From NCBI GenBank assembly GCA_009782875.1, contig WRIE01000008.1, positions 1 to 64,000 of the forward strand: a stretch of 64,000 nucleotides of DNA, in the 5' to 3' direction. This DNA is from Eubacteriaceae bacterium. Its GTDB lineage: Bacteria; Bacillota; Clostridia; Eubacteriales; Anaerofustaceae. A model generated the notes under the pieces. The model was not told where the DNA came from, searched no databases, and saw only the letters and a list, made by a program, of their open reading frames with translations. A program made the translations under genes and the position numbers. Positions 22,036-60,101 of this stretch are shown here, in pieces; the stretch's first letter is position 1, and each line of letters opens with the position of its first letter.

Positions 22036-22596
22036 TATTAATTCCTCCATATAACTCTCTTTGTTACAAAAATATTAGTGATAATCGGAAAGAGTGTTGA
22101 TTTTTATATATAAAGCAACCAAATTGTCTCGATTGCTTCGTTGGTCGCAAAAAGCCATCGCATGCAGTCACCAGTTCAAATATGCTGTCGACTGCACCCT
22201 CAGCATTCCAAACACGAATGAAAAAGCGAGAAGTATCAGTTCAAGAATTTGGTCGCAACACCACAAACAGCTTGGGCACTTCTCCTTGATGGCACTTTGC
22301 AACGTGTTCACTTTGGTAATGCATAAGTGACCTAAGTTGAAAAAAACACTATCGTTCACAACCAACAGCACCTCAAATGACTGGTCTTCTCCAACCTGTT
22401 CTCCCTGCTTATCACCATGTCTCTTTACCGCAGCAGCAGGGAGCTGTTTGGCAGATTTGACTGGTTCAATAATTGCCGAAAAACCAACCTTCATCTAATG
22501 AACACGTGAGCTAGGACTGAGGTAGAATCAACTGTGAACACCACCGCAAGGAAGGCTCTAGGTTTGAGTCTTGTGGCTGGAAGCCTCTTAGAGATC
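22036..22596. other. Region without a supported gene
   Basis: A minus-strand frame at 22168-22494 starts MKVGFSAIIEPVKSAKQLPA, but its second half reads like non-coding sequence and there is no ribosome binding site. I do not call it. The remainder shows nothing recognisable. Confidence 0.35.
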
Positions 22597-23024
22597 CTCA
22601 ACATGTTGTCGCTCTTGTGGTGCTCCTCTAAGTCTTGTTTTCTTAGTGACTCCGCGATTACCTCATCTGTGACATTCCCGCTGCTGAAGCAAAAATAGAC
22701 CAGCACCTACAGATGATTGCCCTAGAATTGCTTGTTCAATTCTTTGTGCTCCATCTGTAGCTTGCAGGAGCTGTAGCCCTTGATATATTGCACAAGCTTG
22801 CTTGCTAGCAAATGCGGATGAACTTAGACCAGTAAATGCACGTGGTCTTTTGACACATGCCCGGCTAGTATCTCAGCATAATTTTGTTGGCAGGAGCCAC
22901 GTATCAGCTCTCTTGTCCGGTGTGCGATCTGGCCTGTCAAAACAGGTTTCCTGCGTTTTGTGATCCATGCTAGGTGGTACTAAATGTCATATGTCGCATC
23001 GGAGGATTTTCTATATTGCTCCAT
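22597..23024 (-). pseudogene. IS200/IS605-family TnpA, decayed
   Basis: From ATG 23024 the frame reads MEQYRKSSDATYDI, stop, YHLAWITKRRKPVLTG, then ILAGHVSKDHVHLLV with the HUH-type His pair (HVH), then LLASKLVQYIKGYSS and SSGNVTDEVI. These are the TnpA (Y1 transposase) blocks in order. At least four stops interrupt it, and the segment expected to hold the catalytic Tyr reads LVYFCFSSGNVTDE. No tnpB lies next to it. It is inactive in itself. Confidence 0.85.
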
Positions 23025-29850: not shown

Positions 29851-30676
29851 AGTCAGCCGTCATCGCATCTTGGCTTGCGACAGCCCTAAGCGCAATGGTG
29901 TTTGAATAAGTCCTCTCACCATTCTTGACGCCTGTGCTGCTGACGCCAGGAAAAATAGCAAAGTATTGCCACACTTCTCCTGCTTGGCCAGACTCTTCGA
30001 TTTCAGTTGTGAAGATAAAGTCTGCTTCCCTCAAAATCTCCAGCTTTTCTTCAGTGATGTCTCCGATTATCCTGATCCCAAGACCAGGTCCTGGGAATGG
30101 TTGGCGATTGACGACAGAGCCAGGCAATCCAAGAGCTGCCCCAACTTCCCTTACCTCGTGTTTTAGCAGCTCCCTTAACGGCTCGACTAGCTCAAATGGC
30201 ATATCTTCAGGCAAACCGCCTACATTGTGGTGGCTCTTGACCAAGCCGCCGCTTGCCGATCCGCTCTCAATTACATCAGAGAGAATTGTGCCCTGGAGGA
30301 GGAACTTAGCTCCTTGCTGCTTAATTGATTCTTCATGGAAGACAGCTATAAACTCCTCGCCAATGATTTTTCTCTTCTTCTCGGGATCAGTTATTCCGGC
30401 GAGTTTTCCGAGGAAGCGGTCTTTGGCGTCGATGCATATCAAGTTCAAGTCGAAGTTTTTCTCAAATGCTGCTATCACATTTTCTTTCTCGTTCTTTCGC
30501 AAGAGTCCATGATCGACTAGGATGCATGTCAAGTTCTTGCCTATAGCCCTGCTGACCAATGCGGCAGAGACCGAGGAGTCCACTCCGCCAGAGAGAGCGC
30601 AAATGACCTTCTCATCTCCAATTCGCTCTTTTAAAATTTCCAACTGGTTTGCGATAAACAACTCTGTATTCATCAT
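29726..30676 (-). CDS. guaA: GMP synthase, ATP-pyrophosphatase/synthetase half only
   Basis: The protein has 316 residues; bacterial GuaA is usually about 510. It starts just before the ATP-pyrophosphatase P-loop (ALSGGVDSS, residues 27-35) and carries the whole synthetase and dimerisation domain ([23 protein letters not shown], ending KPPGTIEWE). The N-terminal class I glutamine amidotransferase domain (about 190 residues) is absent and not found upstream. It would convert XMP to GMP with free ammonia, or with a separate GATase subunit as in archaea. guaB lies 139 bases upstream on the same strand. The 3' end is the attachment site repeated across the neighbouring islands. Confidence 0.9.
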
Positions 30677-30815
30677 TTTTTGGCGCAGTATACCACTATT
30701 TTAGAAATGGGAAGAATGCGCTGTCTCCTTGTTAAAATAATTAAGGGCTTGCTGTGATTGCGTCTAGCCACTATCCCTTGGGATTTATTAGTCGAATTGT
30801 TGGTTAACTAACTAT

Positions 30816-47175: not shown

Positions 47176-47537
47176 AGCAACCCCACATTAATCGCATAGA
47201 ATATCGGTTTATTAGCTTTACGCTGCATTATGCGAAGATATGCAATGATCCTGGGCACAAAAGCATTTAATGCGCATCTTCCCATATTTGGCGCTTGCTG
47301 CCAATAATTATTGTCAAAACTCTCCCGCCTCAGTTTAAAACAACCCTCGCAAAAACGGTAGATTATAATTTCAAAAGAAAATATGCTATTATCTAAAGGC
47401 AAACAAAATAACTCGGCGCTCTTGGCTCCATATTCAATTTGTACACTTAAAAATAACACTGTTAAGCGATAATCGAAATGGCATAAGATAGAACCGAGAG
47501 GTTTATTTATGTCAATAAACCTCCACTTGGGCTTTTA
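47176..47537. other. Upstream region of the glnN leader
   Basis: No gene. A perfect 10-bp hairpin GAGGTTTATT/AATAAACCTC (47498-47523) lies just before the conserved leader and may be its first stem or a terminator. Confidence 0.5.
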
Positions 47538-47876
47538 AAGCGGGGGTTTGCGCCCTTGTCAACTAGCCTATGCCCAGGCTGGCTACGTTGCTGAAGATCT
47601 AAGCGCCGAGGGGCGCCTCCCACAATCCCATGATCTATGGGGCATAGCCAAACAGCCCTGATAGGTGGGGACAGCGCTTTGTGTGCCAAGCCTTTGATGA
47701 CTTTGGGAAAGTGGAATTAACCCTGGTGGTTAAGAGGCTTATATCATTATACAGCTACAGGCGAAAAGGCAACGCCTTCGCTATACAAGAAATTACTAGC
47801 CGAAAGGAGGCGCGATTCCCCCCCGCCTAGCAGCGGCCAATGCCGCCGATTAAGGAAAGGGTATCCTCGCGCAGGA
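47538..47876 (+). ncRNA. Structured leader upstream of glnN, copy 1 of a two-copy motif
   Basis: About 340 nt ending at the glnN start codon. Blocks shared with the kamA leader (59747-60060, minus): AAGCGGG; TAGCCTA.GCC then GGCTGGC.ACGTTGCT.AAGA (47565-47597); AAACAGCCCTGA (47649-47660); CCTTTGATGA-like (47691-47700); AAGTGGA (47709-47715); GGAGGCGCGATTCC (47806-47819); AAAGGGTATCCTCGCG (47856-47871). Hairpins lie at equivalent places but have different sequences: GCGCC-GAGG-GGCGC here, ACC-AAGG-GGT there; GCGAA(A)AGGC/GCCTTCGC here, GCGCTGC/GCAGCGC there. CTATGCCC (47568) can pair with GGGCATAG (47640). This points to a cis-acting RNA or a mobile non-coding element. The 3' block resembles the right end of IS200/IS605-type elements. 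Confidence 0.6.
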
Positions 47877-49973
47877 ATGATGGAAAAAGTGCCAGAAATA
47901 TTTGGAAGCATGGTTTTTAACGAGTCAGTGATGAGAGACAAGCTCCCAAAAGAAATTTACAACGCATTGAAAAAAACCATGTCCCAAGGCACTCAATTGG
48001 AGCTGGATGTCGCAAACGTGGTCGCGGCAGCAATGAAAGACTGGGCTGTTGAAAAGGGCGCGAACCACTTTACCCACTGGTTTCAGCCAATGACAGGAAT
48101 TACAGCTGAAAAACATGATTGCTTTATCACCCCTGCCGGCGAAGGCAAAGTAATTATGGAGTTTTCTGGCAAAGAGCTTGTAAGGGGCGAGTCAGACGCT
48201 TCCAGCTTTCCTTCCGGCGGTTTGAGGGCAACCTTCGAAGCCAGGGGCTATACTGTTTGGGATATTACTTCATATGCATTTATCAAAAACAACACTCTCT
48301 ACATCCCGACAGCATTCTGCTCATACTCCGGCGAAGCGCTTGATAAAAAGACTCCCCTGCTTCGCTCTATGGAAACGCTAGACAAACAAGCCATGCGAAT
48401 CCTCAAACTTTTTGGCAACACATCCACAAAACGTGTTGTGGCGACAGTAGGGGCAGAGCAGGAATACTTTTTGGTCGACAAAGAAGTGTACCTAAGCAGG
48501 CCTGACTTAGTGCTGACTGGAAGGACATTAATTGGGTCCCGGCCGCCAAAAGGCCAAGAACTTGGCGACCACTATTTTGGGAGCATAAAACCCCGGGTTT
48601 CTGCCTTTATGAACGAGCTGGAGGTAGAGTTATGGAAACTCGGCGTTTATGCGAAGACAAAACATAACGAGTCTGCCCCTGCGCAGCATGAGCTGGCGCC
48701 AATATTCACAACAACAAACATAGCCACTGACCACAACCAGTTGATTATGGAATTGATGAAGAGTGTGGCAAACAAGCATAACATGGCTTGCCTGCTGCAC
48801 GAAAAACCTTTTGAGGGCGTAAATGGCAGCGGCAAGCACAACAACTGGTCCTTAGCCACAGACAGCGGCGTGAACTTGTTTGAGCCTGGTGAAACCCCCT
48901 ATGAGAATGCCCAATTCCTCTTGTTTCTTGTGGCAGTGATAAAAGCTGTTGACGACTACCAGGATTTGCTCAGATTTTCTGTGGCAAATGCAGGAAACGA
49001 CCATAGGCTAGGCGCAAACGAGGCTCCTCCTGCCATTGTCTCCATGTTTTTAGGCCAGGAGCTTGTGGAAGTCTTAGAAGCATTGGAGTCCGGCTTAGAC
49101 TATTTCAATAATTACGAACACCAAATGGAGCTTGGCGTTACTGTCTTGCCAAATTTCCCAAAAGATACAACTGACCGCAACAGGACATCGCCATTCGCTT
49201 TTACGGGCAACAAGTTTGAGTTTAGGATGGTTGGCTCGACGTTTTCTATTGCAGAGCCGAACATCGTGCTCAACACAGTTGCTGCAGAAGTATTGAGGCA
49301 ATTCGCCGACCAGCTTGAGGAGTCGGAAGACTTCAACAGCGATTTGGCTGCGATTATAAAAAAGACTTATAGCGAACATAAAAGGATAATCTTTGATGGC
49401 AACAACTACTCTACTGAGTGGGTAGAGGAAGCTTTGGATCGAGGCTTGTCAAACTTGCACACAACCGTTGAAGCGCTGCCGGCATTCGTGTCTGAAAAGA
49501 GCATAGATGTCTTCACACGCCACAATGTTTTCACAAAAACAGAAATCCTCTCCAGATACGAGATACTAATGGAAAGCTATTGCAAGACAATCCATATTGA
49601 AGCGTTGACACTTGTAGACATGGTCAAAGCCCAAATTATCCCGGCTTGCATTGACTACCAGCTTGAACTTGGCAAACTGATGGAGCTGAAAAAATCTGTT
49701 GGAGGCAAGCTCAGTGTCTACCTGGAATTGCAGCTAATGGAGAACATTTCTTCCTTGTCTGAAGGCATGCTTGAAAAGCTCAACCAGTTGGAGGATGCTA
49801 TATTAAATTCAAAAGATCCACGGGACACATTGGCGCAATCCAGGTTTTACCGCAATGAAATTTTGCTTGTGATGGAAGAGCTTAGATATTATGTCGATGA
49901 GTTGGAAACCTTGGTTGCCCGAAAGCACTGGCCGTTCCCGACTTACGCCCAAATACTTAACAGCATTATTTAA
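47877..49973 (+). CDS. glnN: Type III glutamine synthetase (GlnN)
   Basis: The protein has 698 residues, the length of the GSIII class rather than the roughly 450 of GSI. The start region VPEIFGSMVFNESVMRDKLP and the GSIII signature NHFTHWFQPMTGITAEKHDC (about residues 61-80) are clear, followed by GGLRATFEARGYTVWD, the catalytic GAEQEYFLVD, NESAPAQHELAPIF, the nucleotide loop VNGSGKHNNWSL and NRTSPFAFTGNKFEFR. It makes glutamine from glutamate and ammonia. The start is ATG 47877 or the next ATG, with AGGA close by. The conserved leader shared with kamA lies immediately upstream and is the obvious place for regulation. A terminator follows at 50100. Confidence 0.95.
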   Translation: MMEKVPEIFGSMVFNESVMRDKLPKEIYNALKKTMSQGTQLELDVANVVAAAMKDWAVEKGANHFTHWFQPMTGITAEKHDCFITPAGEGKVIMEFSGKELVRGESDASSFPSGGLRATFEARGYTVWDITSYAFIKNNTLYIPTAFCSYSGEALDKKTPLLRSMETLDKQAMRILKLFGNTSTKRVVATVGAEQEYFLVDKEVYLSRPDLVLTGRTLIGSRPPKGQELGDHYFGSIKPRVSAFMNELEVELWKLGVYAKTKHNESAPAQHELAPIFTTTNIATDHNQLIMELMKSVANKHNMACLLHEKPFEGVNGSGKHNNWSLATDSGVNLFEPGETPYENAQFLLFLVAVIKAVDDYQDLLRFSVANAGNDHRLGANEAPPAIVSMFLGQELVEVLEALESGLDYFNNYEHQMELGVTVLPNFPKDTTDRNRTSPFAFTGNKFEFRMVGSTFSIAEPNIVLNTVAAEVLRQFADQLEESEDFNSDLAAIIKKTYSEHKRIIFDGNNYSTEWVEEALDRGLSNLHTTVEALPAFVSEKSIDVFTRHNVFTKTEILSRYEILMESYCKTIHIEALTLVDMVKAQIIPACIDYQLELGKLMELKKSVGGKLSVYLELQLMENISSLSEGMLEKLNQLEDAILNSKDPRDTLAQSRFYRNEILLVMEELRYYVDELETLVARKHWPFPTYAQILNSII

Positions 49974-58624: not shown

Positions 58625-59746
58625 TTACGGTTGCGGGTATTCGTAAATTTGCCCCAAATTATTCCTCATAACAACCTTTTCATCATCTATAGAAACGATG
58701 TACTCAGGATTTATCGGGATTTTCCCTCCACCTCCCGGTGCGTCAATCACAAACTTTGGAATTGCAAATCCGGTAATGCTCCCTGTCAGATCCCCAATGA
58801 TTTTAATGCCAGTTCTCACATCTGTCCTGAAGTGATGCAAGCCCACACTCATATCGCATTGGTAGAGGTAATAAGGCCGAACTCTTGCCTTGACAAGTCC
58901 AAGCATTAGAGCCTTTATTGTCTCGGTGTTATCATTTATGCCTTTAAGCAGCACGCTCTGGTTTCCCAATGGAATGCCTGCATCAACAATCTCGGCGCAA
59001 GCCTTGATCGACTCGCGGGTCAGTTCTGTGGGATGGTTAAAATGTGTGTTGATCCAGATAGGCTGGTATTTTTTCAACATGGATAGCAGGGCCGAGGTCA
59101 CACGCATAGGCATAGTGACAGGAACCCTTGTGCCTATGCGGATGATCTCCACATGCTCAATCTCACGCAACTGTGAGAAAATTGTTTCTAACCGGTCATC
59201 AGAAAGCGTCAATGGATCACCGCCAGATACAAGCACATCACGGATTTCAGGTTTTTTCCTGATATACTCGATTGATTCGTTTATCTCCTCATCGCTTATC
59301 GGGTCATCTTCCTCACCCACAAGCCGCCTGCGGGTACAGTGGCGGCAGTACATAGAACAGCATTGAGTCACTAAAAAGAGCGCCCTGTCTGAATATCTGT
59401 GTACCATGTTCTTTACAGGGCTGGCGATGTCCTCATTGAGAGGGTCAGCCATATCCCAAGGGAAAGGCTGCGTTTCGTTTACTGACGGCACAGCCTGCGC
59501 CCGGATAGGGTCGTTTGGGTCATCTGGGTCGATCAACGAAGCGTAGTAAGGCGTCATCGCCATCCGAAACCTTTCAAGGCACACCGAAATATCCGCTTTC
59601 TCAGCTTCGGATAGGCCAATCACACAAGATAACCGGTCAGCATCCATAATACGGTTATTGTACTGCCAGTGCCAATCATTCCACTCTGGCGATTCTTCAT
59701 TGACGCCAAACATTTCGAATATACGGCTATTTTCTCTATTCATCAT
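58625..59746 (-). CDS. kamA: Lysine 2,3-aminomutase, radical SAM
   Basis: The protein has 373 residues from ATG 59746; an upstream in-frame ATG at 59773 lies inside the conserved leader. The radical SAM motif CxxxCxxC is Cys130, Cys134, Cys137 (CSMYCRHCTRR). EWNDWHWQYNNRI near residue 21 and PFPWDMADPL near 95 are typical of KamA, as are DVLVSGGDPLTL, VNTHFNHP-like INTHFNHPTEL and PGGGGKIPINPEYI with its PLP/Lys environment. It converts L-lysine to L-beta-lysine, used in lysine fermentation, osmolyte synthesis or antibiotic building blocks. No other lysine-fermentation genes are in the window. The leader is shared with glnN. Confidence 0.9.
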   Translation of the reverse strand: MMNRENSRIFEMFGVNEESPEWNDWHWQYNNRIMDADRLSCVIGLSEAEKADISVCLERFRMAMTPYYASLIDPDDPNDPIRAQAVPSVNETQPFPWDMADPLNEDIASPVKNMVHRYSDRALFLVTQCCSMYCRHCTRRRLVGEEDDPISDEEINESIEYIRKKPEIRDVLVSGGDPLTLSDDRLETIFSQLREIEHVEIIRIGTRVPVTMPMRVTSALLSMLKKYQPIWINTHFNHPTELTRESIKACAEIVDAGIPLGNQSVLLKGINDNTETIKALMLGLVKARVRPYYLYQCDMSVGLHHFRTDVRTGIKIIGDLTGSITGFAIPKFVIDAPGGGGKIPINPEYIVSIDDEKVVMRNNLGQIYEYPQP

Positions 59747-60060
59747 TCTTACGCGAGGATACCCTTTCTTCATGCGGTAACATAGACTACTGCCAAGCGG
59801 GTGAGGAATCGCGCCTCCTATGTAGCCTTCCTCAAAGCCAATAGAGTATTGCTGTTTTCTATTAATTCAGCGCTGCATGGCAGCGCCAGTCAAGTCCACT
59901 TGCTCAAGGTTTGCGCGCACAGCACTCTCCCTGCCCGTCAGGGCTGTTTAACTATGCACTATAGAGCGAGGAGCTAGTGGAGTACCCCTTGGTTCTTATT
60001 TCTTAAGCAACGTGCCAGCCAAGGCTTAGGCTAGGCTATCCAACAAAGACCCGCTTCAAC
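59747..60060 (-). ncRNA. Structured leader upstream of kamA, copy 2 of a two-copy motif
   Basis: On the minus strand this 314-nt region carries, in the same order as the glnN leader: GAAGCGGG, TAGCCTAAGCC, GGCTGGCACGTTGCTTAAGA, AAGGGGTAC, GCATAGTTAAACAGCCCTGA, ACCTTGAGCAAGTGGA, then TAGGAGGCGCGATTCC and GAAAGGGTATCCTCGCG, ending at AAGAATGATG. A perfect hairpin GCGCTGC-CAT-GCAGCGC (59871-59887) stands where glnN has a different one. No lysine-riboswitch consensus was recognised. Confidence 0.6.
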
Positions 60061-60101
60061 ACCATAGAGCGTAAATGGAAGGTTATTGATTCTGTATCGC
60101 T

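Follow-up and report, generated by a model that had tools for sequence, protein, structure and literature searches.

Judged from their sequences, the leaders of glnN and kamA in the window (the whole 64,000-nt stretch of DNA that was analyzed) are old copies of IscB-less HEARO elements of an IS200/IS605-like kind. HEARO is the omega-RNA of IscB (OMEGA) transposons, and omega-RNA elements have relatives among the ancestors of Cas9 guide RNAs. It is likely that such non-autonomous elements insert before start codons and bring with them a portable split ribosome-binding site, in which a Shine-Dalgarno sequence (SD) is set apart from the start codon by a stem-loop.

The glnN leader (47511-47879, plus strand) and the kamA leader (60090-59744, minus strand) are homologous lengthwise and both end at start codons. 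An earlier note on this DNA had described collinear blocks in the two leaders that end at the start codons, and both BLAST and the HEARO matches confirmed this. With the glnN leader as query, the kamA leader was recovered as two collinear blocks (73% over 132 nt, E 2e-11, and 78% over 67 nt, E 1e-7), and 15 more places in the genome were matched. Rfam HEARO (RF02033) matched both leaders over the whole model (1-211 of 211), at 47511-47721 for glnN (39.9 bits, E 8.8e-7) and at 59880-60090 on the minus strand for kamA (51.6 bits, E 1.2e-9). Because these scores are below the gathering score of 83 bits that defines curated HEARO membership, we designate the leaders as HEARO-derived and not as members of the curated family. 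The earlier suggestion that the leaders are a conserved structured RNA was right. The glnN leader had been placed at 47538-47876; a leader is indeed present there, but its ends differ, with the element extending from approximately 47511 to 47879 and the ATG at 47880. A right-end model, R1, was built from an alignment (A1) of 18 right ends and cut at the end of the element, so that the target was excluded, and R2 is a wider extension of this model. R1 matched the glnN copy at 47798-47879 (E 1.8e-25) and the kamA copy at 59744-59826 (E 1.5e-24). The features of the window are:

47496..47501, plus strand: GAGAGG, probable former SD of glnN (sequence; suggested by its position)
47511 (approximate left end)..47879 (right end), plus strand: HEARO-derived, IscB-less element before glnN (HEARO match, R1 match, ordinary SD in relatives)
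47511..47721, plus strand: HEARO/omega-RNA-like region of the glnN copy (RF02033, below gathering score)
47804..47810, plus strand: AAGGAGG, SD within the right end of the glnN copy (sequence, predicted fold)
47810..47872, plus strand: right-end stem-loop of the glnN copy, arms GCGCGA (47810-47815) and TCGCGC (47867-47872) (predicted fold)
47880..49973, plus strand: glnN, glutamine synthetase III-like (start at 47880 corresponds to the start in relatives)
59744..60090, minus strand: HEARO-derived, IscB-less element before kamA (HEARO match and R1 match)
59814..59819, minus strand: AGGAGG, SD within the right end of the kamA copy (sequence)
59751..59814, minus strand: stem-loop in the right end of the kamA copy, with GCGCGA (59814-59809) and TCGCGT (59756-59751) as its arms (predicted fold)
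58625..59743, minus strand: kamA, lysine 2,3-aminomutase family (start codon adjoins the element directly)
30675..30737, minus strand: weak third right end, of an older lineage, before a guaA-like ATP-pyrophosphatase gene (R2 on the window, E 0.014; SD-stem-ATG scan)

In relatives of GlnN, the start codon equivalent to 47880 is preceded by an ordinary SD. Here, GAGAGG lies 9 nt 5' of the left end of the element, a position which suggests that it is probably the original SD of glnN. An in-frame ATG at 47877 is part of the element end and is not equivalent to the glnN start in relatives.

Other identities proposed for the leaders fared differently. The earlier note had named raiA as a candidate, and had suggested a riboswitch-like element tying glutamine synthesis to lysine catabolism. 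Neither a riboswitch nor a raiA identity had Rfam support: a cmscan of the window and both leaders with E up to 10 gave no raiA match and no credible match other than HEARO. The glutamine-lysine link was dropped, since the same element, which is an RNA of a known kind, precedes many unrelated genes. A third option, a non-autonomous transposon, was right in substance. A match to a known Rfam family, or many copies unrelated to gene starts, had been named beforehand as possible refutations; a known family was indeed matched (HEARO), but the copies, though many, are mostly located exactly at gene starts.

Thirteen HEARO matches were detected in the genome (best 81.8 bits). One of them, on contig 26, has a decayed IscB fragment (RRXRR, 2 stops) between HEARO and the same right end, and this links the leaders to IscB elements. 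The genome yielded no intact IscB, and the glnN and kamA copies have no IscB ORF. Transposase is also absent inside the copies; 24 Y1_Tnp matches, several of them intact, occur elsewhere in the genome. In the window, a group II intron domain match (RF01999, 22375-22492) was observed beside a Y1 transposase with four stop codons (22650-22994), the two together occupying 22375-22994 on the minus strand.

Searches with R1 and R2 (E <= 0.1) gave approximately 47 right ends in the genome, a number that includes, as non-start cases, two weak matches (L170 and L087) that are probably not real copies; a further weak match, L173, is probably not real either. Thus, the pair of copies recognized earlier exists, but its number was understated, the window itself having the weak third right end listed above. 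The geometry of SD, stem and AUG was also tried as a detector in its own right and rejected; its background was too high (2.8 per 1000 ATG versus ~2 per 1000 other triplets), and the counts were therefore restricted to copies identified by homology. The exact right-end pattern was not detected in viral contigs, and in GTDB contigs it had seven scattered matches in unrelated organisms.

As far as sequence comparison can tell, the leaders are insertions that relatives are without. No strong R1 match was found in 60 relatives, and R2 gave only two weak matches in 397 other genomes of the phylum. The gap between prp and rpmA is 1-26 nt in those same-family relatives in which prp was found, with a GGAGGA-type SD in place; here it is 208 nt and ends in the right end. 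The infA-rpmJ gap is 507 nt here. Both gaps are HEARO-derived stretches inside conserved ribosomal-protein operons, infA-(~500 nt)-rpmJ in L161 (G000:C21:6100-9100) and prp-(~200 nt)-rpmA in L162 (G000:C92:1300-4300).

The end of the element coincides exactly with a start codon in 37 of the 47 copies (34 if only clear ATG starts are counted). Genes that follow right ends include rpmE, rpmJ, rpmA, metG, an EF-G-like gene, mscL, glnN and kamA. Real downstream genes, with a conserved domain from residue 1 or nearby, encode L31, L36, L27, MetG, MscL, an EF-Tu-type GTPase (EF-G-like), transketolase and YicC. Nearly all junctions in this genome precede ATGA or ATGG, and those in other genomes precede ATGA or GTGA; in its first description, HEARO was reportedly found inserted directly 5' of ATGA or GTGA. 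In a 464 kb sample processed with a crude gene-calling script, start codons accounted for 105 of 954 non-disrupting ATGA sites (11%). At this share the binomial chance of 37 in 47 is 6e-27, and it is 7e-12 even if the true share is 30%. Our search of the literature, a limited one in which an earlier notice of the bias may have been missed, returned nothing relevant on HEARO or IscB with start codons or ribosome-binding sites.

The right ends have a conserved order: an SD (AAGGAGG, AAGGAG or GAGGT), a stem with a loop of 25-58 nt, 7-8 nt, and AUG. Stem variants are GCGCGA/TCGCGC, GCGTGG/TCACGC, TCGCGA/TCGCGA, GGCGCA/TGCGCC and GGCGCA/TGTGCC; the stem of the glnN copy was also found in other copies, with sequence changes. 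A subterminal hairpin at the right end, as in IS200/IS605 elements, is present in almost all copies as GCGCGA/TCGCGC or GGCGCA/TGCGCC. Covariation within A1 was modest (two pairs changed on both sides), and between lineages the stem sequence differs with pairing kept. In intact start-codon copies, the distance from SD to AUG is 44-76 nt unfolded and is predicted to be 6-11 nt folded (median 8.5), that is, the structure would shorten the spacing to a working distance. The bridging stem had a median predicted probability of 0.93, with values above 0.5 in 30 of 39 copies versus 18% when the interior was shuffled; it was predicted to be weak in that context for glnN (0.32) and kamA (0.04). The median predicted probability of an unpaired SD was only 0.59. 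In many copies the SD can pair in part with a CCTCC farther downstream in the same right end, and an SD-hiding hairpin formed by these two segments is possible.

We propose that insertion of a non-autonomous, IscB-less HEARO element (an omega-RNA region plus an IS200/IS605-type right end) directly 5' of an ATGA or GTGA that is the start codon of a gene would place several hundred bases between the host SD and the AUG. Ahead of the host start codon, the right end would then supply AAGGAGG or a similar SD, followed by a GC stem-loop and a further 7-8 nt, and formation of the stem would put this SD ~6-11 nt from the AUG, from which a ribosome could start the host gene. With such a split site in the right end, insertion at start codons would be tolerated, even in essential operons, and start-codon copies would be kept as working 5' leaders as the remainder of the element decays. 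The sequences themselves show the homology to HEARO, the number of copies, the junctions at start codons, the lack of the element in relatives and the conserved SD-stem-AUG geometry; from these we infer that ribosomes reach the AUG from the right-end SD by way of the folded stem, and that copies are retained since host genes depend on it.

The main rival to the split ribosome-binding site assumes that the insertions at RTGA are of the ordinary HEARO/IS200-IS605 type and that the SD-like stretch is part of a DNA hairpin recognized by the transposase. Clustering at start codons would reflect survival only, with insertions inside genes having been lost, and the host genes would be translated weakly or from unrelated signals. 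The ATGA or GTGA target at nearly every junction agrees with this explanation, as does the ability of the SD stretch to pair with CCTCC in many copies; retention of the SD may in part reflect a function of the transposon end as DNA. The subfamilies also differ in the way survival would give, since only 4 of 9 copies of the younger GATTAG subfamily are located at start codons versus nearly all older ones. However, survival alone predicts start codons at ~11% of non-disrupting ATGA sites versus the ~79% seen, and the essential genes rpmJ, rpmA and metG must be translated. In addition, SD and stem were both intact in 20 of 24 start-codon copies versus 1 of 6 others (Fisher P 0.005), i.e., they were retained at start codons and mostly lost elsewhere, which suggests selection at start codons. 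The better conservation of the right end as such is partly an ascertainment effect, as copies were found through it, and conservation windows upstream of the AUG, confounded by this way of finding copies and by indels, were set aside as evidence. The numbers speak against survival alone, and we consider this explanation unlikely.

It is quite improbable that the element supplies transcription instead, with an outward promoter in the right end giving mRNAs that are leaderless or have a very short leader from the AUG. Such transcripts would fit an AUG directly at the end of the element and the lack of a good SD 5-10 nt upstream in the unfolded sequence. However, no promoter-like -10 box at a fitting distance was seen in right ends inspected by eye, rpmJ and rpmA are inside conserved operons, and a strong SD at a constant folded distance would be without a role. 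Least probable of all is a cis-regulatory RNA domesticated from HEARO, which would control these genes by alternating, like a riboswitch, between a hairpin that hides the SD and a bridge that exposes it. Two mutually exclusive pairings can be drawn in the right end (SD-CCTCC or the GCGCGA/TCGCGC stem) and the element precedes many genes, but no theme unites these genes, the loops differ freely among copies, older copies showed no conserved pocket-like core, and there is no known signal.

HEARO was present in 34 of 398 genomes of the phylum, and the right ends of these copies were alike, consisting of AAAGGAGG, a GGCGCA..TGCGCC stem, 7 nt and RTGA. Approximately 5 of ~22 recognizable right ends in these other genomes abutted gene starts, including those of ssb, parB-like and parA-like genes. 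By sequence, the right-end architecture is not private to the genome studied here; massive use of start codons is, as far as searched. At one locus (L249, ~1.1 kb after HEARO, G406:C3:472657), the sequence flanking HEARO on its 5' side (ATGATTGTAATAATTTCAAGC) is similar to the beginning of the parA-like gene at the right end, as if the guide and the 3' flank derived from related copies.

Several known systems resemble these leaders in part. They are similar to HEARO, the omega-RNA of IscB, in the full-length model match of both leaders, the decayed IscB in one copy, and insertion at ATGA or GTGA. In contrast to it, the scores are below the gathering score, intact IscB was not found, the copies are located mostly at start codons, and the right end has the SD-stem-AUG arrangement. 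IS200/IS605-type and ISC (IscB) insertion sequences and their non-autonomous derivatives share a subterminal right-end stem-loop and a short target; the copies described here differ in having neither transposase nor nuclease and in strongly favoring the interval from SD to start codon. IStrons, which combine a group I intron with an IS605-type element, splice out. They provide another example of an element related to IS605 whose RNA would make its insertion less harmful; here, no sign of splicing was seen and the insertion point precedes the start codon. Experimental precedents for the proposed bridging are phage T4 genes 38 and 25, in which an SD too far from the AUG is brought within working range by an intervening stem-loop, and destabilized structure leads to less translation (PMC3014915). 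Those are gene-specific phage structures, whereas the bridge proposed here is a predicted one, with a longer loop (25-58 nt), carried by a mobile cassette before dozens of bacterial genes.

A broader reading, to which we give an even chance, is that HEARO/IscB transposons evolved start-codon landing, in which the RTGA target (start codon plus A) is combined with a ready-made split ribosome-binding site. Dozens of host genes, ribosomal-protein genes included, would then rely on dead transposon ends to be translated in this lineage, and remnants of omega-RNA would serve as their 5' leaders. If true, the ATGA/GTGA target of HEARO elements would be explained as start-codon landing, and transposons would have a simple route into essential operons without killing the host. 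The genome would also offer some 40 natural variants of a ribosome-binding site bridged by a hairpin, and omega-RNA elements, relatives of Cas9 guides, would be seen becoming gene leaders.
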